This document shows, piece after piece, positions 1 to 34,554 of a stretch of DNA of 34,554 nucleotides. Both the position numbers and the translations under genes were made by a program. Numbering within the stretch: the first letter of the stretch is position 1; each line of letters opens with the position of its first letter. Source of the stretch: Saprospiraceae bacterium (GTDB lineage: Bacteria > Bacteroidota > Bacteroidia > Chitinophagales > Saprospiraceae). The notes under the pieces were generated by a model. It did not search any database, was not told the DNA's origin, and worked only from the letters and a program-made list of their open reading frames with translations. Where the stretch lies: contig JALSKB010000006.1 in the NCBI GenBank assembly GCA_026989035.1, positions 1-34,554 of the forward strand, in the 5' to 3' direction.

Positions 1-3000
1 GATGCGGATGCGTATCTGTACGGTTGGATCGACTTCAACGGCAACGGCGTATTTGATGCGTCGGAGGAAGTGATAGCCGGCTTCCAGGTAGGCAGCGGAG
101 TGGTAGGCAACCAGGTGAGCGGCAACGAGAGCTTTACGATCAGCGTGCCTGTGGATGCGAAGTGCGGTACGACCTATGCGCGCTTCTACATCCACGACGA
201 TGCGGGCATAGGAGCTACGGGCTTGTACGGAGACGACGGCGAGGTGGAAGACTACGCCTTGGAGGTATTGAGCACGGTGGTAGTAGATGCGGGAGCGGAT
301 CAGTCGATTTGTTCGGGTGGCAGCACGACGGTGAGTGCTCAGGCTTCGGGAGGCACGGCACCGTACACGTATGAGTGGAACGAGGGCTTGGGCGTAGGCC
401 AGAGCCATGTGGTAAGCCCTGTGGTAACGACGACGTATGTGGTAACGGTAACGGATGCGAACATGTGCAGCGCAGTGGATACGGTGGTGGTGAGTGTGAG
501 CGAGTTGAATGCTCCGATTATCCAGACGGATTGCAATGACAACGGCACGCCCTCGGATCCGTCGGATGACACCTTCACCTTTACGATAGAGGTGAATGGG
601 ACGAACACGGGAGCTACGTACACGATAAGTGGCGATGCAGGTGTGATAGCGAATCTGCCGTTCAACTCGCAGCAAGGGCCGTTTGGTCCGTATGCGATAA
701 CGGGCGGAGATTTGAACATCACGGTAACGATGGACGAGGAGCCGATGTGTAGTGTAGATGCGGTAGTAGAAGCTCCGGCGAGCTGCTCGAACGAGTGTCA
801 TATTGATGGTGATCCCATGGTCGTGGCGACTTGCTATGACAATGGTACGCCTACGGATCCGAGTGACGATTACTACGAATTTACGATTGTAGTAACAGGT
901 TCAAATACCGGAGCGACTTATTCGATCAGTTCACCAAACTTTGGTCCGATTACCGGCCTACAGTATGGTCAGGTTGAGGGTCCGTTTGGTCCGTTCAACA
1001 TTTTGACGGTAGGTGATCAGAATATTCTGATTCAGGACGAAGACGATCCGCAGTGCCAGCTGACTTATACGGTAACAGCGCCACAGGCTTGCTCCGATCA
1101 ATGTGAGATTTTGCAAGTGAACTACGAAGTGACTTGTGATGACAACGGTACGCCCAGTGATGACACGGATGATGTTTATTCCTTTGTGATCGAAGCAACA
1201 GGAGTAAATACCGGTCAGACCTTCTCCATTACGGGAGACGTAGATACGAGTGGTCTTGCTTATGGCATCCAGCACACGATACCCGGGCCGTTTGATGTAG
1301 GTACAGATTTGAATATCACGATTGTCGATGATGATTCTGCGAGCTGTACCTACGATGTCGTTATTGAGTCGCCGGCACCTTGTTCGAGCACTTGTCAGTT
1401 GGACGATCCCATTGTAGAAGTGAAGTGCAACGACAACGGTACGCCTTATGACGATTCGGATGACATTTTCTATTATCGCTTGACGGTAACCGGCGTATTC
1501 TTGAGCAACTGCTACAACATTACCGGTGGCGACACGCAAACGGGAGTGCCTTATGGTGAGTCCGATTGGTTTGGTCCGTTTGATATTTCGGCCGGAGGTT
1601 TTGATCTGTTGATTCAAGATTGCGACGATGCAGGATGCTCTACTACGGTAAGCATTGTGCCGCCTGAGCCTTGTTCTTTGAATTGTCAGATCATTGATGT
1701 CGTCATTACGGATGTATGTAGTGACAATGGTACGCCTCAGGATCCGGATGACGACTATTACCAGTTCAACATTTATGTTTCTGGTCAAGACGTATCTGCT
1801 TCAGGCTACCATGTAAGTGGCGATTATGTGGCCAACGGTTTGCCGTATGAAGTAGTGAATGGGCCTTACGGAAACTTTGCTCCGGGCTCGACTATTACGC
1901 TGACGGTAACGGATGCCGATGATGCCGGTTGTGAACAGACAGTGAACTATACTTTCCCGACAGCCAGTTGCTCGAATCAGTGTTCGTTGAACTTCCCTGA
2001 GATTGTAACTTCTTGCGACGACAATGGTACGCCTTCCGATCCGACGGATGATACGTATTCTTATACGGTCTTCCTTACGGGAAATGCCACGGGAAGCACG
2101 TATTCGATTTCGGGTGACGACACCCAAACAGGCTTACAGTATGGCGTAGTAGAAGGGCCTTTTGCTGTGGGTACGCCTATTGGCACCAACTTGCAATTGA
2201 CCTTTACAGATGATCAGGATCCGAACTGTCAGATCACGTATGAGGTGGTATCGCCTGCAGCTTGTTCCAACACTTGTGCCATAGATCCGAATCCGCAGGT
2301 GCAAGTGAGTTGTAACGACAATGGCACGCCGGCAGATCCCTCGGATGACATTTGGTACTTTACTTTGCTGGTAACGGGTAGCAACACCTCTACCACCTAC
2401 TCTTTGTCGGGCCCGAATCCGGTTGGTGCTCAGGGTCAGAACTTGCCTTATGGCATAGAGACGAATGACATTGGTCCGTTCTCTATCCAAGGGCAGCAGC
2501 AGATTGCGATAGTCATTACAGATGATCAGGATCCGAACTGTACTTTATCGCTTGTGATTGAAGCACCGGATGCCTGTCCTTCCGATTGTGCGCTGTCTGA
2601 TCCGTTCTTTGCCTTTGAGTGCGACGACAACGGCACGGCTGATGATCCGACTGACGACTTCTACCATGTACGGATTTACGTCGATGGGGTGAACGTTAGC
2701 GGCACATATACGGTAACGGGAGGCTTCTTTGCTGCCAATCTGCCCTATGGCCAGCTCAATGGGCCTATTGGCACGATTAACCCGGGTGAGATTGTCTTCG
2801 TGGACATTACGGATGATGCTTATCCGAGCTGTAATTTGCAAAACGTCGCTGTGATTGCTCCGACAAATACCTGTTCCTTTGAGTGTGCTTTGAATGAGCC
2901 GCTCATAGCTACGGATTGCGATGACAATGGTACGCCTGATGATCCTTCCGATGATCAGTACTATTTCACCATTACCGTAACGGGCAACAGCACGGGCAGT

Positions 3001-6000
3001 GGTTATGCCATCAGTGGTGACTTGAACGAGCCGGGCCCCTGGCCTTATGGACAGGCAGTTGGACCTTTCGGACCTTATGATTTGGATGTGGTCTTGAATC
3101 TGGATATCCAAGATGTGGACCACGAGACTTGCAGTACTTCGGTAACTGTTACGGGTCCCGAAAACTGTATTGAAGCCAATGGCAGCATTGGAAATTACGT
3201 CTGGGAAGATTTGGATGGCGATGGCATTCAAGACGCCAATGAACCGGGCATCCCGGGTGTTACGGTAGTCTTGACGGGTACCACAGTACTTGGCGATCCG
3301 GTTATGCTGACTCAGACGACCGATGCAGATGGCTACTATTTGTTTGACAACTTGCCTCCGGGTACGTACAAGGTAACCTTCCCGACCATACCCGGTTATG
3401 CCATGACGATCCCCAATGCACCGGGCAGCAATGATGCCAATGATAGCGATGCTGATCCGGCTATGGCTGGTATGACGGAATTCATCGTCTTGTCTAGTGG
3501 AGAGGATTATTTGGATTTCGATGCCGGTTATTATCGGTACGCGGCTTTGGGTAACTACGTATGGCACGACATCAACGGCAACGGTTTGCAAGATGCCGGA
3601 GAGCCGGGTATAGGAGGTGTACAAGTGGTCTTGGTAGGTTTTGATGGAGCTGGTAATCAGATTACTCAGGTAACCTTTACCGATCCCGATGGCTACTACT
3701 TGTTTGACAACTTGCCTCCGGGCACGTATAACGTAACTTTTGATACGCCGGATGGAGGCTTCGTGACCACTTGGCTTGACCAAGGTGCGGATGACACCAT
3801 TGACAGCGATGCCGACCCGGCTATGGGCAACATGACTATTAACGAGCAACTTACCTCGGGTGAGGAAAACCTCACTTACGATGCAGGCTTCTACATTCCT
3901 GCAACCATAGGAGACTTTGTCTGGTCAGACAACGACGCCGACGGCATGCAGGATGCTGATGAGCCGGGCATTCCCGATGTAGAGGTGGCTTTGATTGGTT
4001 TCAGCAACATTGGTCAGCAAGTAGTGCTCTTCACCACTACGGATGCAGATGGCTACTACTTGTTTGACAACCTGGCTCCGGGCAACTACTTCCTGGCCTT
4101 TACGACGCCGGCCGGTTATACGCCCACGCAGCAGGATGCTACCGGAGACGATACCAACGATAGCGATGCCGATCCATTCTCCGGATTTACCGCTACGGAA
4201 GAGTTGCTCTCCGGAGAGACCAACCTGACGTATGATGCCGGTTATATCCCGGGTGAAGAACCGCCGGCTTCGGTTGGTGATTACGTCTGGGAGGATACCG
4301 ATGGTGATGGCATACAAGATGACGATGAAAACGGTATCCCGGGTGTTTGGGTATATCTCTATCCTTGTGGAGATCCGAATAACCCCATCGACAGCACCCA
4401 GACGGATGCCAACGGTCATTACGCCTTTACCGGATTGGAGCCGGGTGATTACATGATCCAATTCGTTTTGCCGGAAGGCGACTACAGCTTCACCACGCCT
4501 AATGCAGGCGATGATGCAGTGGATAGCGATGCCGGCAACGGTGGATTTACCGACTGCTTTACACTGACGCCGGGAGAGAATAATGAAGATGTGGATGCCG
4601 GTATAGTACCTTGTGGCCCGATGGGAGAGTTGACTTGTGTGGGTGATGTTCAATTGCCGGTGGATGAAAACTGCCAGTTGGTTATTGATCCCTTGAATTT
4701 TGTAGAGGCTACGGGTAGCTGTTACACGGGCTTGATTGCCGTGGTGACGGATGCCGATGGCAATATCCTTGGAGAAGTGATTTCCTCTGACTATCTCGGA
4801 GAAGAAATTACGGTAACCGTGATAGATACCCTCTCAGGGCAGTCTTGTTCTACCGGGGTAACGCTGATAGACAATACGCCGCCTGTTATAGATTGTCCTA
4901 CCGATACCTTGGTTGTCGGCTGTAAACTCCTGCTGGATGAACTGGACGTCCCGGTAGCTTATGACAACTGTACAGAGGTCGTTGCTGTCAATCTAATTGA
5001 TCAGATTTTCTTGGATGGCGATCCCTGTGATGACGGCATGATGGTGGTCGAGCAGGTTTGGGTCGCTGTGGATGAATGGGGTAATGAATCCGATCCTTGC
5101 ACGCGCATCGTGCAGGTAAGCCGTCCTGAGCCGGTCTTCCCACCGGATGTAAGCTGGACTTGCGAGGAATATGCCCAGTGGCCTCAGATTATCGAGCCAG
5201 GGCCTTACAAGCCGGAAGATCCCTGCTGTAGCGGCTCCGGTTTCCCGGATGTGCAAGGTGCTTATTGCAATTACGATGTGAACTATACGGATGAGATTGT
5301 GCCCACTTGTGGTGATAACTTCATGATCATTCGTACCTGGACTATCACGGATGATTGCAACGGCAATGTCATTACCCACGAGCAAATCATTGAGATTGTG
5401 GATGAGGTGCCGCCTCTGGCAGAAGTAGAGGATGTGCTCATCGAAGTGGATGGCGAATTTGAGTGTGAAAGCACGGGACCCTTGCCCGGCCCGACAAACA
5501 TCTCGGACAATTGTTCGGATGAATGGACGGTGCAAATCATGACGCCTTTAGGTGAGGCTATCTACGTCAATGGCGTCGATGGAGCCGATGGTGGCTATAT
5601 CCCGAATCCGGGCTTGTCGGTCGGAGAGCACGAAGTGGATTACATCATTACCGATGCCTGTGGTAACGATACCACCCTTACCGTAACGGTTACCGTAACG
5701 GAAAGTACACCGCCTGTGGCCGTTTGCCAGGATGCCCTTACCGTAGAACTGCAAGGTAGCTTGCAGGAGTTCCCTGCTTCCTTCTTCGACAACGGCAGCT
5801 TTGACGGTTGTTGCTTTGATGAGGTGCAGGTACGTCGTATGGATCCGGGTTGTGGCGCTCCCAACATGGACTTTGGGCCTTTAGTAACCTTCTGTTGCAG
5901 CGACATCGACAATGGGCCGGTGATGATTGCCCTGAGGGCATTGGATTGCTCCGGCAACTTCAGTGAGTGCCAAATGGAAGTTACCGTTACGGGTGATGTC

Positions 6001-8409
6001 CTTTCGGTAAATGAGGTCATGGTTCCGGAAGATACCGTCATCACTTGTGAAGAGTACTCGTATTACGTCGCTCCCTGGTTGAATATCGGCGAGTACGGTA
6101 TTCTGGATGCTTACGGTATCCTTACGGCAGACGACGGCTCTTGCGTAGAAGTTGCTGAAATGATTGTCGATGTGGATATTGACATGTGTTTTGAAGGTAC
6201 GATAACCCGCACTTGGATTCTCAGCGATGGTCAGACGACCTGTACGCAGGTGATTTACGTCCATCAGGAGTCTGACTGGGTAGTGTCCTTCCCGCAGGAT
6301 ACCATGGTAAACTGTAACGACCTGCCTTTGGCTTACGGCGGAGAGCCGGAGATCTTCTTTGACGAGTGCGAGCTGATAGCCACTTCGTATGAGGATCTGG
6401 TTCTTACGGCAGTAGATGATGCTTGTTACAAGATTGTTCGCACTTGGATTGTGGTCAACTGGTGCTTGTTTGAAGACTTTGGCTACGACGCTTACCAAGA
6501 GCTTTCCGAGGCTGAGGTAGGCATAGACTTCGACGGTGATGGCGATATGGACGACCACACCTTCCAGGAAGGCGTTACGGTTGAAGGTGAGGCCGACGGC
6601 TACATCGCTTACACGCAAATCATTAAGGTAATCGACAACGAAGCTCCGGTACTGTTTATCTCCGACTTGCAGCTTTGCACGACGGATGCCGAAAACTGCA
6701 TGGGAACCATTGAGTTGCCCTTGCCGGACAGCGTTCAGGATTGCAGCGATGATTTGACCTACTGGGTCTTCACCAACCTGCCCAACGGCGATGGCTTTGG
6801 CCCGTACTACGATGTGCCGGCAGGCTCCTACTTTGCCCTGTATTCAGCAACGGATAACTGCGGCAACGTCGGTTCGAAGTACGTGAACATCGAGCTTATT
6901 GATTGTACGCCGCCTCAGGCCCAGTGTATTAACAATGCCACGGCTAACATCAACAGCCAAGGTGTAGCCAATGTCTTGGCCATAGCCCTTGACGGAGGTA
7001 GCTATGACAACTGCTCGGATGTATTGAACTTCTCCTTCTCGGAAGACATCTCCGATCAGATCATGACCTATAGCTGTGTCGATCTGGGTACCTATACCGT
7101 AGATGTTTGGGTGACGGATGAATCGGGTAACCAGAGCGTTTGCCAGACCCAGCTCTCCATTGTGGACAGCCAAGGCAATTGCGACGGTCTGATGAACTTC
7201 TCCGGTACGGTGGCCCGTGAAGATGGCGATGGCCTGCTCAATGCCGAGATTTACGTGAACAACGACATGAGTGATATGACTAATGAAGACGGTCAATATG
7301 CGGTTGCCCTCTACAGTGGTTATGACTATACCGTCAAGCCGTACAAAAACGACGACTTGCTCAATGGCCTTTCTACTTTGGATATCGTATTGCTCAAGCA
7401 ACACGTGTTGGGTATCAACCCCTTGAGTTCACCTTACCAGCTCATTGCTGCCGATGTTGATCGTTCGGGTTCTGTTACTACGTTGGATGCAGTATGGCTG
7501 AAGAAAGTCGTTCTGTATCTCGAAGACAAATTCCCCAACGACAACACTTCTTGGCGCTTTGTGCCGGCGAGCTTTGTCTTCCCCAATCCGGCTAATCCCT
7601 GGGTGGATGGAGGCTTCCCCGAGGAGTTGAATTTCTACCCCTTGAACGGAGCTGTAAGCAACGCCGATTTCGTAGCCATTAAGATCGGAGACCTCAACGG
7701 CACGGCTCTGACGAACTTCACCGGTGCTACAGGTCAAGAGCGTTCTTCAACAGAGCCCTTGCCCTTGCACATGCCCGATTTGGAATTCCGCAAAGGCGAT
7801 CTGCTGGAAGTTCCGGTGCGTCTGGATGAAATTTCTCTCTTGGGCTTGCAATTTTCCATGAAATTTTTGGAAAATAAGTTGGAATGGGTATCTTTGTTGC
7901 CGGGAACTATGGAGGAATCCGATTTTAGCTTGGAAGAGCTTGCCGAAGGCCTGGTCATGGCCAGTTGGAGCAAGGAGAAGCTCGTCCGGCTGAAAGAAGG
8001 ACAAATCCTTTTTACCTTGGTTTTCGAAGCGGTCGAAGACGGTCGCTTGAGTGAGGCTTTGAAGTTTGATTCGCAGTATCTCAAGCCGGAGCTTTACTCG
8101 GAAGCGACTGAAGTACATGAGCTGTACTTGCAATTCGACTCAAGGGAGGATCGGCTCTTTGCACTTTATCGCAATGCACCTAACCCTTTCTCTGGCAAGA
8201 CCAGGATAGGCTTTAGCTTACCTCGGGCTGAAGAGGTTTACTTCACCATTACTTCTGCCACAGGAGAGGTGTTGCGCCGATGGAGTGCTGTTTATGAAGC
8301 CGGTTACAACGAAATTGAACTGGATATGTCGGGCTATTCCGGCGTGTACTATTACCGCATAGATGCAGGCGACTATACCGCTACGCGTAAAATGGTCGTC
8401 TTGCGTTAA
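1..8409 (+). CDS. Giant T9SS-secreted surface/adhesin-like protein, 5' truncated
   Basis: The frame is open from base 1, so the gene starts upstream; about 2,802 residues are visible. Domains in order (numbered from the window start): a GEVED domain (about 1-90), a PKD/SprB-like Ig module (about 93-168), nine Asp-rich Cys-containing modules beginning C-x-DNGTP (about 177-1057), four SdrD_B modules of the form GNYVWxDxDGDGIQDxxEPGIPG (about 1060-1537), a long Cys-rich HYR/Ig-like region (to about 2395), a dockerin-like segment (about 2440-2507, with DVDRSGSVTTLDAVWLKK), a cohesin-like beta domain (about 2584-2710), and a C-terminal T9SS type A sorting domain (about 2720-2802) starting NAPNPFSGKTRIGFSLP. 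Known T9SS substrates with such C-termini are exported across the outer membrane and often anchored to the cell surface. Many Asp loops suggest calcium-stiffened stalks. A role in adhesion or gliding is inference. It stands alone with its own terminator. Confidence 0.9.
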   Translation, partial: DADAYLYGWIDFNGNGVFDASEEVIAGFQVGSGVVGNQVSGNESFTISVPVDAKCGTTYARFYIHDDAGIGATGLYGDDGEVEDYALEVLSTVVVDAGADQSICSGGSTTVSAQASGGTAPYTYEWNEGLGVGQSHVVSPVVTTTYVVTVTDANMCSAVDTVVVSVSELNAPIIQTDCNDNGTPSDPSDDTFTFTIEVNGTNTGATYTISGDAGVIANLPFNSQQGPFGPYAITGGDLNITVTMDEEPMCSVDAVVEAPASCSNECHIDGDPMVVATCYDNGTPTDPSDDYYEFTIVVTGSNTGATYSISSPNFGPITGLQYGQVEGPFGPFNILTVGDQNILIQDEDDPQCQLTYTVTAPQACSDQCEILQVNYEVTCDDNGTPSDDTDDVYSFVIEATGVNTGQTFSITGDVDTSGLAYGIQHTIPGPFDVGTDLNITIVDDDSASCTYDVVIESPAPCSSTCQLDDPIVEVKCNDNGTPYDDSDDIFYYRLTVTGVFLSNCYNITGGDTQTGVPYGESDWFGPFDISAGGFDLLIQDCDDAGCSTTVSIVPPEPCSLNCQIIDVVITDVCSDNGTPQDPDDDYYQFNIYVSGQDVSASGYHVSGDYVANGLPYEVVNGPYGNFAPGSTITLTVTDADDAGCEQTVNYTFPTASCSNQCSLNFPEIVTSCDDNGTPSDPTDDTYSYTVFLTGNATGSTYSISGDDTQTGLQYGVVEGPFAVGTPIGTNLQLTFTDDQDPNCQITYEVVSPAACSNTCAIDPNPQVQVSCNDNGTPADPSDDIWYFTLLVTGSNTSTTYSLSGPNPVGAQGQNLPYGIETNDIGPFSIQGQQQIAIVITDDQDPNCTLSLVIEAPDACPSDCALSDPFFAFECDDNGTADDPTDDFYHVRIYVDGVNVSGTYTVTGGFFAANLPYGQLNGPIGTINPGEIVFVDITDDAYPSCNLQNVAVIAPTNTCSFECALNEPLIATDCDDNGTPDDPSDDQYYFTITVTGNSTGSGYAISGDLNEPGPWPYGQAVGPFGPYDLDVVLNLDIQDVDHETCSTSVTVTGPENCIEANGSIGNYVWEDLDGDGIQDANEPGIPGVTVVLTGTTVLGDPVMLTQTTDADGYYLFDNLPPGTYKVTFPTIPGYAMTIPNAPGSNDANDSDADPAMAGMTEFIVLSSGEDYLDFDAGYYRYAALGNYVWHDINGNGLQDAGEPGIGGVQVVLVGFDGAGNQITQVTFTDPDGYYLFDNLPPGTYNVTFDTPDGGFVTTWLDQGADDTIDSDADPAMGNMTINEQLTSGEENLTYDAGFYIPATIGDFVWSDNDADGMQDADEPGIPDVEVALIGFSNIGQQVVLFTTTDADGYYLFDNLAPGNYFLAFTTPAGYTPTQQDATGDDTNDSDADPFSGFTATEELLSGETNLTYDAGYIPGEEPPASVGDYVWEDTDGDGIQDDDENGIPGVWVYLYPCGDPNNPIDSTQTDANGHYAFTGLEPGDYMIQFVLPEGDYSFTTPNAGDDAVDSDAGNGGFTDCFTLTPGENNEDVDAGIVPCGPMGELTCVGDVQLPVDENCQLVIDPLNFVEATGSCYTGLIAVVTDADGNILGEVISSDYLGEEITVTVIDTLSGQSCSTGVTLIDNTPPVIDCPTDTLVVGCKLLLDELDVPVAYDNCTEVVAVNLIDQIFLDGDPCDDGMMVVEQVWVAVDEWGNESDPCTRIVQVSRPEPVFPPDVSWTCEEYAQWPQIIEPGPYKPEDPCCSGSGFPDVQGAYCNYDVNYTDEIVPTCGDNFMIIRTWTITDDCNGNVITHEQIIEIVDEVPPLAEVEDVLIEVDGEFECESTGPLPGPTNISDNCSDEWTVQIMTPLGEAIYVNGVDGADGGYIPNPGLSVGEHEVDYIITDACGNDTTLTVTVTVTESTPPVAVCQDALTVELQGSLQEFPASFFDNGSFDGCCFDEVQVRRMDPGCGAPNMDFGPLVTFCCSDIDNGPVMIALRALDCSGNFSECQMEVTVTGDVLSVNEVMVPEDTVITCEEYSYYVAPWLNIGEYGILDAYGILTADDGSCVEVAEMIVDVDIDMCFEGTITRTWILSDGQTTCTQVIYVHQESDWVVSFPQDTMVNCNDLPLAYGGEPEIFFDECELIATSYEDLVLTAVDDACYKIVRTWIVVNWCLFEDFGYDAYQELSEAEVGIDFDGDGDMDDHTFQEGVTVEGEADGYIAYTQIIKVIDNEAPVLFISDLQLCTTDAENCMGTIELPLPDSVQDCSDDLTYWVFTNLPNGDGFGPYYDVPAGSYFALYSATDNCGNVGSKYVNIELIDCTPPQAQCINNATANINSQGVANVLAIALDGGSYDNCSDVLNFSFSEDISDQIMTYSCVDLGTYTVDVWVTDESGNQSVCQTQLSIVDSQGNCDGLMNFSGTVAREDGDGLLNAEIYVNNDMSDMTNEDGQYAVALYSGYDYTVKPYKNDDLLNGLSTLDIVLLKQHVLGINPLSSPYQLIAADVDRSGSVTTLDAVWLKKVVLYLEDKFPNDNTSWRFVPASFVFPNPANPWVDGGFPEELNFYPLNGAVSNADFVAIKIGDLNGTALTNFTGATGQERSSTEPLPLHMPDLEFRKGDLLEVPVRLDEISLLGLQFSMKFLENKLEWVSLLPGTMEESDFSLEELAEGLVMASWSKEKLVRLKEGQILFTLVFEAVEDGRLSEALKFDSQYLKPELYSEATEVHELYLQFDSREDRLFALYRNAPNPFSGKTRIGFSLPRAEEVYFTITSATGEVLRRWSAVYEAGYNEIELDMSGYSGVYYYRIDAGDYTATRKMVVLR
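532..3170 (+). repeat. Nine tandem ~99-residue Asp/Cys-rich modules inside the giant surface protein
   Basis: Modules begin near 532, 832, 1132, 1426, 1717, 2014, 2308, 2620 and 2917, a period of 291-312 bases. Each starts C-[ND/Y/S]-DNGT(P), continues with xDxxDD, then an aromatic-rich strand, a G-x-TYxISG-like strand, a G(P)FGPF-like turn, a second Asp cluster ending in Cys, and a CSxxC-like close. The protein pattern is well kept, while the DNA differs at many synonymous positions, so the copies are old or under diversifying pressure. I do not recognise a named family for this module. Confidence 0.85.
3180..4610 (+). repeat. Four tandem SdrD_B-like modules
   Basis: Modules begin near 3187, 3550, 3907 and 4276 with G(N/D)(Y/F)VW-x-D-x-(D/N)-(G/A)-(D/N/G)-G, then IPGVxV and DADGYYLFDNLPPG. 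This is the SdrD_B/collagen-binding B type fold first known from staphylococcal Sdr proteins, calcium-binding in that family, here serving presumably as rigid spacers in the surface protein. Confidence 0.88.
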
Positions 8410-12940: not shown

Positions 12941-12984
12941 TTGTGCTGTATTTTGAAATAAGGTCTTATATTTGCGAAAGCAAA
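12941..12984 (+). promoter_or_regulatory. Putative promoter and GAAA hairpin upstream of the ECF sigma gene
   Basis: TATATTTG at 12967-12974 matches the TAnnTTTG -7 consensus. The nearest TTG (12941-12943) is 23 bases upstream, longer than the usual 19-21. TTTGC-GAAA-GCAAA at 12971-12984 is a perfect inverted repeat overlapping the end of the -7 box. If used, the mRNA has a leader of about 205 bases. Confidence 0.55.
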
Positions 12985-13055
12985 AGCAGCGTAGATAAAG
13001 GGCTATGCGTTAAAATTGCGTTAAAAAAGGACGTTAAGAGGTACAGTTACCCTAA

Positions 13056-13075
13056 ATGCCCGTATATTTGGGCAT
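13056..13075 (+). promoter_or_regulatory. Leader hairpin with a TATATTTG motif in its loop
   Basis: ATGCCC (13056-13061) and GGGCAT (13070-13075) enclose a loop that, with its closing G, spells TATATTTG (13063-13070). It may be a leader structure or a second, proximal promoter; no TTG is found at the -33 distance. Confidence 0.4.
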
Positions 13076-13185
13076 GTAAAACAACTGAAACATTTTCTTC
13101 TCACCTCAAAACAAAGGCTTATAGACGGCAGCATTTACTAAATCAGCAAGACGAACACTTTCTTTTAACTAAAAGCGATTTAGTT

Positions 13186-13767
13186 ATGCCAGTTAAGCCT
13201 TTGAATGACCAGCAACTTATTCAAGCCTATTTAGAGGGTAATGAGCGTGCTTTTGAAGAACTTCTTCAACGGCATAAGCAAAAGATTTATACCTCTATTT
13301 ATCTCTTTGTCAAAGACCACAGCTTGGCTGAGGATATTTTTCAAGAGGTTTTTATCAAGATTATAGACACTTTGCGTCAAGGCAAGTACAACCACGAAGG
13401 CAAGTTTGTGCAGTGGGCTATGCGGATAGCTTACAACCTTTGCGTGGATTACTTTCGGCGTTCCAAGCGGCGTCCGCAGGTACATGGTTCGGATGAGTTT
13501 GACATTTTCGAGGTGTTGCGCGTAGATGGTGACAATGTAGAGGAGCGCATGATCAAAGAACAGACTTATGATCGAGTGCGTCAACTGGTGGATATGCTTC
13601 CTCCCGAGCAGCGAGAAGTAGTGATTTTGCGCCATTATGCAGATATGAGTTTTAAAGAAATTGCACAACTGACTCGGGTGAGCATCAATACGGCCTTGGG
13701 GCGCATGCGCTATGCTCTGATCAATATGAGAAAGATGATTGCTCAAAAGCAGGTCCAGCTGTCGTGA
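13186..13767 (+). CDS. ECF-type RNA polymerase sigma factor
   Basis: 193 residues from ATG 13186 (MPVKPLNDQQL). Region 2 spans about 20-90, with the core-binding pattern LAEDIFQEVFIKI and the -10-recognising helix WAMRIAYNLCVDYFRRSKRR; region 4 spans about 130-185, with LPPEQREVVILRHYADMSFKEIA and the HTH TRVSINTALGRMRYAL. There are no regions 1.1 or 3, so it is an ECF (group IV) sigma factor. No anti-sigma gene follows: the next feature is a terminator. The frame stays open back to 12943, but the extra 81 residues are Lys/His-rich, unlike any sigma factor, and overlap the promoter. It may be controlled through its long leader and the divergent MerR gene. Confidence 0.9.
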   Translation: MPVKPLNDQQLIQAYLEGNERAFEELLQRHKQKIYTSIYLFVKDHSLAEDIFQEVFIKIIDTLRQGKYNHEGKFVQWAMRIAYNLCVDYFRRSKRRPQVHGSDEFDIFEVLRVDGDNVEERMIKEQTYDRVRQLVDMLPPEQREVVILRHYADMSFKEIAQLTRVSINTALGRMRYALINMRKMIAQKQVQLS

Positions 13768-31391: not shown

Positions 31392-32006
31392 ATGGCAAGA
31401 TACAGAGGCCCCAGAGCGAAAAAAGAAAGAGCCTTCGGCGAGCCCATTTTTGGCGGCTTGCGCGCTTCCGACAGAAAAAAGTATGCTCCCGGCATGCACG
31501 GCAACAAACGTCGCCGTCGCCAAAAATCGGATTATGCTCTCCAGTTGATGGAAAAACAAAAGGCCAAATACACCTATGGCGTACTGGAACGCCAATTTCG
31601 CAACCTCTTTGAAAAAGCCAGCCGCCGCGGGGGCGTTACGGGTGAAGTGTTGCTGCAGTTCCTGGAAGCACGCCTGGACAATGTCGTGTATCGCCTGGGA
31701 ATAGCCCCGACACGGCGCGCTGCCCGCCAATTGGTCTCGCATCGACATATCCTATTAAACGGAAAGGTGAACAACATCCCTTCTACTCAGGTAAAACCGG
31801 GAGATGTCATCAGCGTGCGACCGAAATCACAAGGCATAGAAGCTATTCGCGACAGCGTGGCCGGCAATGGCTCCAATGTGCGCAAATTTCCCTGGTTGGA
31901 GTTCAATCAGGATCAAATGACGGGTAAATTCCTGGAATATCCGGAGCGGGAAGCTATCCCCGAAAAAATCAACGAGCAGTTGATCGTTGAGCTTTACTCG
32001 AAGTAA
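31392..32006 (+). CDS. rpsD: 30S ribosomal protein S4
   Basis: 204 residues. S4 initiates 30S assembly and in E. coli represses the alpha operon. [22 protein letters not shown], the [24 protein letters not shown] block and the S4 RNA-binding domain [35 protein letters not shown] (about 92-126) are present. The N-terminus has no Cys zinc site. A 314-base spacer separates it from the first rpoA gene. Confidence 0.97.
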
Positions 32007-32320
32007 GCGGCTCTTCATGACCGAATCCCGAGGAGTTGGTACAGCGGAAGACCGCATGGCTTCGGAATGAAAAAAGGGATTGCCAGCCGGTATTATGCAA
32101 ACCATGCCGTAGAGCATGTATAGACAGCAAACAAAGACCGAAAAAGCCCTTTTCCCCCGAGGCTTTCCGCCTATCAAAGGTCAATGGAAGAAAACCAAAA
32201 AGGAAAAGCACCGGGGGCCGTTGAAAAGCCTTCGGCTGGTCTTTTTGGATTTAGTTGGCGGTTGCAGGTGCCACAAGGCATAAACAACGGCTTTCCTCAA
32301 TCAAAAAGTTCTTCGCAACT
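32007..32320 (+). other. 314-base spacer between rpsD and the first rpoA
   Basis: I see no credible gene: short open frames here lack recognisable sequence. It has several inverted repeats: AAAAGGG near 32068-32076 with CCCTTTT near 32147-32153, CATG...CATG around 32102-32119, GCCG...CGGC and AGCC-TTC-GGCT in 32217-32241, followed by TCTTTTT. No TAnnTTTG box was found. It is the longest spacer of the cluster and may be an untranslated control region for alpha synthesis. Confidence 0.5.
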
Positions 32321-33316
32321 ATGAATATTCTCGCTTATCAAAAACCCGATAAAATTGCCGTTCAAAAAGCCGACGAGTTCGAAGGCGTTTTTGAATTTCA
32401 GCCACTTGAACCGGGTTTTGGGCAAACTATAGGAAACGCTTTGCGCCGTGTCTTGCTCTCTTCTCTGGAGGGCTTTGCAATTTCAGCTGTACGCATTACC
32501 GGCGTAGATCACGAGTTTTCAGCTATTCCAGGCGTTGTACAAGATGTGGTAGATATCGTTTTGAACCTCAAGCAGGTCAGATTAAAGCAATTGCTCAACG
32601 ACGATACCACCAATGAAACAAAAACTTATTTGACGCTTTCTGGAAAAGAGGTGTTTAAAGCCGATGAAATCGAAACCGTGACCAACATGTTTAAGGTCAT
32701 GAATCCGGATTTGGTCATCTGCGAAATGGACCCCTCCGTAACGCTGGAAGTCGAACTGACCATTACTCGCGGTAGAGGTTATGTGCCTGCTGATGAGAAT
32801 TTGCCCAAAGATGCACCTTTGGGCGTTATCCCCATTGATGCCATCTACACACCTATTAAAAATGTGGCTTATCGGGTTGAAAATACCCGTGTGGGAAAAC
32901 GCACCGACTTTGAAAAGCTCATTCTCGAGGTGAAAACCGACGGCACGATTAACCCGCAAGATGCCGTCAAAGAAGCAGCCCGCATTCTCATTGAGCATCT
33001 GATGCTCATTACCGATAAAAACATAGCTGTTGAGGAGGGTGGAGCTACTACCGATGAAGAGCTGGATGAGGAAATCCTCCAAGTGCGCAAATTGCTGAAA
33101 AAGCCTTTGGAAGACCTGGAACTCTCCGTGCGCGCCTTCAATTGCCTCAAAGCTGCTAAGATCGACACCTTGGGTGAGTTGGTCAGATACGAAACCAGTG
33201 AGCTGTTGAAATTCAGAAACTTTGGCAAAAAGTCTTTGGTGGAACTTCAGGATATGCTTGAAAAACTCGGCTTGGCTTTTGGCATGGATTTGAGCAAATA
33301 CCAATTGGACGATTGA
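32321..33316 (+). CDS. rpoA: RNA polymerase alpha subunit, first copy
   Basis: 331 residues from ATG 32321 ([12 protein letters not shown]); a GTG-led extension to 32255 is not supported. Alpha dimerises through its N-terminal domain to seed beta/beta' assembly; its C-terminal domain binds UP elements and activators. The N-terminal domain has the family blocks [19 protein letters not shown] and [24 protein letters not shown] (the conserved HEFS), GRGYVPADE and [29 protein letters not shown] flexible acidic linker (about 231-250) leads to the C-terminal domain with [12 protein letters not shown] and [12 protein letters not shown], keeping the DNA-contacting Arg, Asn, Lys, Gly and Lys of E. coli R265, N268, K271, G296 and K298. 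This is the canonical-looking copy. Fifty bases to the second copy, no terminator between. Confidence 0.96.
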
Positions 33317-33366
33317 CCTTCTGACCTCAGCTTCCGTTTTTTCCTCCATCAACAAAAAAAAGCACA

Positions 33367-34362
33367 ATGAATATTCTGCCCTATCAAAAGCCTAATAAAA
33401 TAGTGCTCCAAAAGTCCAGCGACTTTGAGGGTGCTTTTGAATTTAAACCGCTGGAACGTGGTTTTGGCCAGACGATAGGCAATTCTTTGCGTCGGGTTTT
33501 GCTTTCCTCTTTGGAAGGCTATGCCGTATCGGCCGTACGTATCCATGGCGTGGATCGTCAGGAGGCTCAGTTGAAAGGGGTGAAGCAGGATGTCGTAGAT
33601 ATGATCCTCAACCTCAAACAACTGCGCATAAGACCGGTTGATGAAGCAAAAGTTGATAAGGAAACCAAAATTTACATAGCGGTCTCGGGCCAGGAAAAGT
33701 TTACCGGAGCAGATATTGGAGCAGTAACGAACTTGTTTGAGGTGATCAACCCCGAATTGGTTATTTGTGAAATGGAGCCTTCCGTCAAACTGGAAATGGA
33801 GCTATTCATTACCAAAGGACGGGGCTATGTACCTGCCGATGAAAAAGCCGCCAAAAAACTCGGGTCAGGCGTTATGGCTATTGATGCCATTTATACCCCC
33901 ATCGAAAATGTGGACTATCGAGTGGAAAATACGCGGGTGGAGCAGCGTACAGACTACGAAAACCTGACCATCGATTTGAAAACCGATGGCAGCATCAAAC
34001 CCGAAGATGCCGTTAAAGCAGCTGCTCGCATACTCATTGAGCACTTCAGCCTTATCGCCGATGAAAAGGTGAAATTGCCAAAAGGCGAAGGTGCCGGTTC
34101 AGGAGATGAGGATCAGGATCACGAAATTGCAGAACTGCGCAGGCTGTTGCAAAAACCCTTGGAAGAACTGGATTTGTCTGTGCGTTCCTACAATTGCCTG
34201 AAGGCGGCAGATGTCAAAACCTTGGGCGATTTGGTGCGCTATGAAGCTAATGACTTGTTGAAGTTTAGAAATTTCGGCCGCAGATCCTTGGCTGAATTGG
34301 AAGATTTGCTCCAGAACCATAACCTGACCTTTGGCATGGATCTGGATAAATACAACTTGTAA
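33367..34362 (+). CDS. RNA polymerase alpha subunit, second (paralogous) copy
   Basis: 331 residues, the same length as the preceding alpha and, by my hand alignment, about 60% identical, covering both domains. N-terminal blocks [56 protein letters not shown] and AARILIEH are kept, so dimerisation and assembly look feasible. It differs at positions that are normally conserved: HEFSxIPGV reads RQEAQLKGV, and the C-terminal FGKKSL reads FGRRSL (the E. coli K298 position is Arg). The linker is distinct (KGEGAGSGDEDQD). Two full-length alphas in tandem are rare; Francisella is the known case of a heterodimeric bacterial alpha. Function as a heterodimer partner or alternative alpha is inference. 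rplQ follows after 159 bases. Confidence 0.95.
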   Translation: MNILPYQKPNKIVLQKSSDFEGAFEFKPLERGFGQTIGNSLRRVLLSSLEGYAVSAVRIHGVDRQEAQLKGVKQDVVDMILNLKQLRIRPVDEAKVDKETKIYIAVSGQEKFTGADIGAVTNLFEVINPELVICEMEPSVKLEMELFITKGRGYVPADEKAAKKLGSGVMAIDAIYTPIENVDYRVENTRVEQRTDYENLTIDLKTDGSIKPEDAVKAAARILIEHFSLIADEKVKLPKGEGAGSGDEDQDHEIAELRRLLQKPLEELDLSVRSYNCLKAADVKTLGDLVRYEANDLLKFRNFGRRSLAELEDLLQNHNLTFGMDLDKYNL

Positions 34363-34521
34363 AACCTGTTGCCCCCTATGTTAAAGTGGCAATAACAGGA
34401 CTGCCGGGCGAATGGGAAACGAGGGGCAAGTTTCCTCCCGAGGCGGATTGTTCCTTAAGGAGCATCTGCAATTTGGCGCTCGAGTCTTGTGTTGCGAGGT
34501 TAACCTTAAAAACTAAAACTC
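34363..34521 (+). other. 159-base spacer between the second rpoA and rplQ
   Basis: No gene seen. TTGCC (34369-34373) can pair with GGCAA (34388-34392), and TCCTTAAGGA near 34452 is a palindrome. No T run or TAnnTTTG box is present, so rplQ is probably read from upstream. Confidence 0.45.
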
Positions 34522-34554
34522 ATGCGACACGGCAAAAAATTTAACCACTTGGGC
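34522..34554 (+). CDS. rplQ: 50S ribosomal protein L17, first 11 codons
   Basis: MRHGKKFNHLG is the family N-terminus of L17, and rplQ follows rpoA in almost all bacteria. The gene runs off the window end. Its position confirms that the two alpha genes occupy the single rpoA slot of the alpha operon. Confidence 0.9.
   Translation, partial: MRHGKKFNHLG

Follow-up and report, generated by a model that had tools for sequence, protein, structure and literature searches.

RNA polymerase contains two copies of the alpha subunit, which occupy non-equivalent positions and have different jobs. To our knowledge, nearly all bacteria have a single rpoA gene in the slot between rpsD and rplQ. An alpha homodimer with such differing jobs is a model for the division of labour between duplicated genes, and experimental work on the subject comes essentially from one genus, Francisella. 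A solved structure whose two alphas are named alpha 1 and alpha 2 (PDB 6wmp) is presumably the Francisella enzyme. Paralogous alphas with subfunctionalisation have been described in that genus, with experiments, and two non-identical rpoA genes are also present in Chloroflexus and Streptomyces avermitilis (PMC3294249). A second independent case, in a genus that also includes single-copy relatives, would let the steps of duplication, relaxed constraint and beta-surface loss in one copy be ordered and tested by reconstitution.

The locus described here belongs to an uncultured member of the Saprospiraceae (Bacteroidota), whose genome has two different intact rpoA genes side by side on the + strand, 3' of rpsD. 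The window, meaning the whole stretch of DNA analysed, is the entire contig C6 (34554 bp) of a draft genome of 215 contigs and 3.12 Mb, estimated to be 97.2% complete and 0.3% contaminated. Two members of the same genus, G001 and G002, serve as points of comparison.

Layout of the locus and identity of the two genes

The rpsD gene (ribosomal protein S4; 31392-32006, + strand) is a 204-aa ORF with 94% identity to rpsD of G001. It is followed by a spacer of 314 bp (32007-32320) and by rpoA1, the slower-evolving of two full-length RNA polymerase alpha genes (copy 1; 32321-33316, + strand, 331-aa ORF). A 50-bp spacer, A-rich ahead of the ATG (33317-33366), separates it from rpoA2, the fast-evolving full-length alpha gene (copy 2; 33367-34362, + strand, also a 331-aa ORF). 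The next spacer, of 160 bp (34363-34522), is in part alike to the rpoA-rplQ spacer of G001 and G002. Finally, rplQ (ribosomal protein L17; 34523-34554, + strand) is represented by 32 bases at its start before the contig end cuts the gene, which continues on contig C138.

The first-pass annotation had placed the pair between rpsD and rplQ. Its upstream half is seen directly in the window, but the downstream half depends on the 32 bases of rplQ and on the remainder of that gene on C138. The first 145 bases of C138 overlap the end of C6 with 1 mismatch, which does not alter the product of rplQ in the ten codons compared, and the sole rplQ of the genome lies at the start of C138. The gene order rpsD-rpoA1-rpoA2-rplQ is well supported, with its last step read across the contig join. 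No further rpoA was found in the contigs of this genome beyond the tandem pair.

In terms of family membership, both proteins score above the cut-off of the RpoA family NF003516 of NCBIfam (384.8 bits for copy 1 and 357.6 for copy 2, cut-off 353) and of TIGR02027 (364.1 and 331.5, cut-off 227.8). Both contain PF01193, PF01000 and PF03118, corresponding to the dimerisation, insert and C-terminal domains, so that ORFs, family cut-offs and domains agree with the earlier description of two consecutive 331-aa genes with complete domains. Over 331 residues the two proteins share 62% identity, close to the 60% first counted by hand, and 80% similarity (E=2e-154); copy 1 shares 81% identity with RpoA of G001. 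Structure models reach only modest confidence (pLDDT 74 and 67, with 7 sequences in the alignment). The model of copy 2 matches RNA polymerase alpha chains in the PDB with a poor global superposition (TM 0.35-0.39), for which reason it serves as fold-level support only.

Between the copies, the NG86 estimates are dS 3.8, meaning that synonymous sites are saturated, and dN 0.26. Saturated synonymous sites together with constrained proteins indicate that neither copy is new or decaying. Judging from these substitutions, both copies are under long-standing purifying selection, and the protein-level constraint that had been proposed for them is borne out. The genes are very probably real and selected as alpha subunits. 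The duplication had also been called old; this fits the synonymous change, but the event is confined to one genus clade.

The spacer between rpsD and rpoA is 314 bp here versus 9 bp in both single-copy genus members. Within the genus, no homology to it is detectable past the end of rpsD. It has no match in Rfam, and its predicted fold (z=-1.08) gives no convincing structure. The promoter box TAnnTTTG is absent from rpsD to rplQ, and no promoter-like box was found on the + strand of the 50-bp spacer. A structured RNA or a promoter in the 314-bp spacer was considered and set aside, as Rfam, RNA folding, the TAnnTTTG search and genus homology returned no convincing match.

Elsewhere in the window, a very large ORF of about 2,800 aa (1-8409), open at the contig start, precedes the ribosomal cluster. 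It includes SdrD_B-like repeats as well as a dockerin-like stretch and weakly matches a secretion tail, and its product is likely a giant surface or secreted protein. A gene for a sigma-70 family (ECF-like) factor (12943-13767) lies immediately upstream of the rpsL-rpsG-fusA cluster.

Distribution and history of the duplication

Matches to PF01000 were counted in relatives and in 398 family, 399 order and 393 phylum genomes (the phylum set being at least 90% complete), for a total of 1,033 different genomes, G000 to G1032. Among the 1,033 Bacteroidota genomes sampled, the one that contains the window is alone in having two full-length rpoA genes in a single slot. In both G001 and G002 a single rpoA occupies this slot, separated by 9 bp from rpsD and by about 127 bp from rplQ. 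Double hits in three further genomes do not represent pairs: in G151 they lie on two contigs with 94% identical DNA and are likely strain variants, in G397 one gene is split across two contigs, and in G762 the second hit falls under the family cut-off. A scan of named genomes returned only distant single relatives, and the open-access literature searched describes neither an alpha pair in Bacteroidota nor a tandem pair, subscription papers being outside its scope. The survey and the literature are thus in line with the first-pass statement that no tandem pair was known in this phylum. Several genomes rated 99-100% complete, including G237, G189, G683 and G735, have no PF01000 match; their rpoA has perhaps been lost at contig ends.

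A maximum-likelihood phylogeny built from 83 RpoA proteins places the two copies with G001 and G002 at a support of 100/100. Furthermore, at ten sites the copies share with G001 a residue that is rare in the remaining family. This genus clade and the ten shared derived residues indicate that the duplication most likely arose within the genus lineage.

As to the order of events inside the genus, the best tree joins copy 2 to G001 and G002 (100/85), and the data do not reject a topology that pairs the two copies (AU p=0.336). Shared derived sites conflict, with 12 uniting copy 1 and G001, 8 uniting copy 2 and G001, and 2 uniting the copies, and different parts of rpoA give different tree pictures. 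A tree had been suggested as a means of dating the duplication; it puts both copies inside the genus clade and is compatible with an event on either side of the split from G001 and G002. The ends of the single rpoA of G001 (L033:2152-3159) are more like copy 2, and its middle is more like copy 1. This mosaic likeness could reflect recombination between former copies, or merely uneven rates.

As for evolutionary rates, we counted the changes proper to each protein against those of G001, taking the family majority as the ancestral state. The counts are uneven for rpoA1 (28:13) and rpoA2 (64:12) and even for rpoB (31:26) and rpoC (42:42), each of which is present once in the genome. This points to an acceleration confined to alpha and most pronounced in copy 2, whose branch in the tree measures 1.06. 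At sites invariant in other family members, rpoA of G001 and G002 (L033 and L034) shows about 5x more change than rpoB plus rpoC, and copy 1 shows the same. This ratio does not exceed about two in most other genomes, G009 being one of the exceptions. By these counts, rapid change of alpha characterises the genus as a whole, and the present possession of two copies does not by itself account for it. A genus-wide fast rpoA would be in keeping with a duplication older than the split and a subsequent loss, although this is no demonstration.

Contact surfaces, working model and alternatives

Positions in E. coli numbering come from aligning both copies to an E. coli alpha sequence that we assume to be correct; the list of DNA-contact residues in the C-terminal domain is likewise assumed. 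The regions of alpha protected by beta are 30-55 and 65-75, and those protected by beta-prime are 175-185 and 195-210 (PMC3294249). Of 25 conserved sites in the beta regions, copy 1 has kept all and copy 2 has altered 5, one of these changes being shared with G001. The changes in copy 2 include residues 64-66 (E. coli positions 66-68), where HEF is replaced by RQE; these positions are HEF or HEY in every relative with the stretch aligned. In the beta-prime regions, 1 of 15 conserved sites is changed in copy 1 and 2 of 15 in copy 2. Copy 2 shows departures within these regions at E. coli positions 181, 200 and 210. Adjoining this region, copy 1 has a Lys in place of an invariant Gln at 194.

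Permutation gives no significant contrast between beta and beta-prime surfaces of the two copies (p=0.37), and comparing the protein's ends with its middle gives none either (p=0.18). A clean split of the two surfaces between the copies was set aside on this ground, as was a division of the changes by protein part. The proposal that each alpha is dedicated to beta or beta-prime therefore stands in part: it agrees with the lost HEF of copy 2 and the unchanged beta sites of copy 1, and is weakened by the beta-prime changes of copy 2, by the permutation result and by Arg45 in both copies. The other first-pass proposal, two polymerase populations, finds neither backing nor contradiction here; the genome has one rpoB and one rpoC.

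Residues Arg45 and Lys86 and the dimer residues F35, T38, I/V46 and S50 are identical in both copies, so homodimers could still form. At positions 35, 38 and 46 both have F, T and V, as do most single-copy relatives. In the C-terminal domain, the DNA-contact residues R265, N268, C269, G296, S299 and E302 are kept in both, K298R in copy 2 being the only change. Copy 2 also departs at C-terminal sites invariant in relatives (K260Q, K280D and K304R, in the numbering of the window protein).

The reading we favour, with a probability of about 0.5, is that a tandem duplication in the genus lineage left two alphas that both serve one beta/beta-prime set, mostly as an alpha1-alpha2 heterodimer with copy 1 at beta. 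Under this model, rpoA was duplicated in tandem inside the genus lineage, and each copy retained its function as an alpha. With two non-equivalent alpha positions available, duplication would have relaxed the constraint on each copy, after which both would have sped up, copy 2 far more. The two genes are probably co-transcribed in the alpha operon; their common strand, the 50-bp spacer and the absence of a TAnnTTTG box are counted in favour. Most polymerase would then hold the heterodimer, in which copy 1, with its entire conserved beta-contact region, would sit at beta, and copy 2, having lost the HEF motif, would take the beta-prime position. The C-terminal domains of both copies are predicted to still bind DNA. 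A further, doubtful elaboration is that the duplication preceded the genus split, that the single-copy relatives subsequently reverted to a lone alpha, which may be a mosaic, and that an oriented heterodimer, tandem-encoded in the alpha operon, evolved here independently. If true, sister species would record the acquisition of a two-alpha polymerase as well as its reversal.

The identical Arg45 and dimer-interface residues of the copies would equally allow both alphas to dimerise freely, giving up to four core enzymes whose C-terminal domains differ in their preference for activators or promoter elements. K260Q, K280D and K304R in copy 2 are compatible with this, and the Chloroflexus alphas are thought to be still equivalent (PMC3294249). 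The strong rate asymmetry and the loss of HEF in copy 2 only suggest, however, that the copies are not interchangeable, and we hold free dimerisation to be a tentative alternative. The long branch of copy 2 and its departures at sites invariant in relatives, HEF included, could also mean that it is no normal core subunit and acts as a free or sub-stoichiometric alpha-like regulator competing for activators or DNA. Such a role seems unlikely for a protein that keeps the three RpoA domains, Arg45 and the dimer residues, encoded at the position and on the strand of a housekeeping gene.

The remaining explanations concern the source of the second gene. Joining of rpoA genes from two related bacteria of a mixed sample might be suspected in a 215-contig draft with a contig break just past rpoA2 and one overlap mismatch, the more so as rpsD and rpoA are 9 bp apart in G001 and G002, the genus members with one copy. 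Both genes lie within one contig, however, and a false join would need shared sequence in the 50-bp spacer. The genome has no alternative rpoA or rplQ contig, the copies are alike in GC (45.6% and 46.6%) and the estimated contamination is 0.3%, which makes an artefact of assembly quite improbable. Even less probable is the gain of copy 2 by horizontal transfer from another bacterium. Its long branch and an identity to all others of 68% at best would be expected of a foreign gene, but its place within the 100/100 genus clade disfavours a source outside the genus, it shares derived residues with genus members, and no closer donor is present in the 83 tree rows, in plasmid records (best 52%) or in the scan of named genomes (best 57%).

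Comparison with known two-alpha systems

The pair resembles that of Francisella in several respects. Both systems have two divergent full-length RpoA proteins that stem from a lineage-specific duplication and are both faster-evolving, with one copy altered in the beta-contact region and a single beta and beta-prime. By analogy, the Saprospiraceae pair may work like the Francisella pair. The differences concern position and interface: the second rpoA of Francisella lies outside the ribosomal operon, whereas the Saprospiraceae genes are in tandem between rpsD and rplQ. Francisella alpha2 is without Arg45, which both Saprospiraceae copies keep, and dimer-interface residues differ between the Francisella alphas but are the same in both copies here. 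Heterodimerisation has been shown experimentally in Francisella and is proposed for the present pair. Since the loss of Arg45, the change of the dimer interface and the location of a second gene elsewhere are all lacking, we do not file the pair as Francisella type.

In Chloroflexus, the paralogs have no drastic interface changes reported, and in S. avermitilis they are fairly recent; in both, the second copy lies elsewhere in the genome (PMC3294249). Eukaryotic Rpb3/Rpb11 and archaeal Rpo3/Rpo11 are also two different alpha-like subunits, of which the larger contacts the beta-like subunit, and the likeness is one of analogy only. Those pairs are very ancient, of very different sizes and need extra small subunits for assembly, whereas the Saprospiraceae copies are both full-length RpoA. 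On the genomic comparison, the Saprospiraceae pair is an independent, tandem, Bacteroidota variant of the known paralogous-alpha arrangement.
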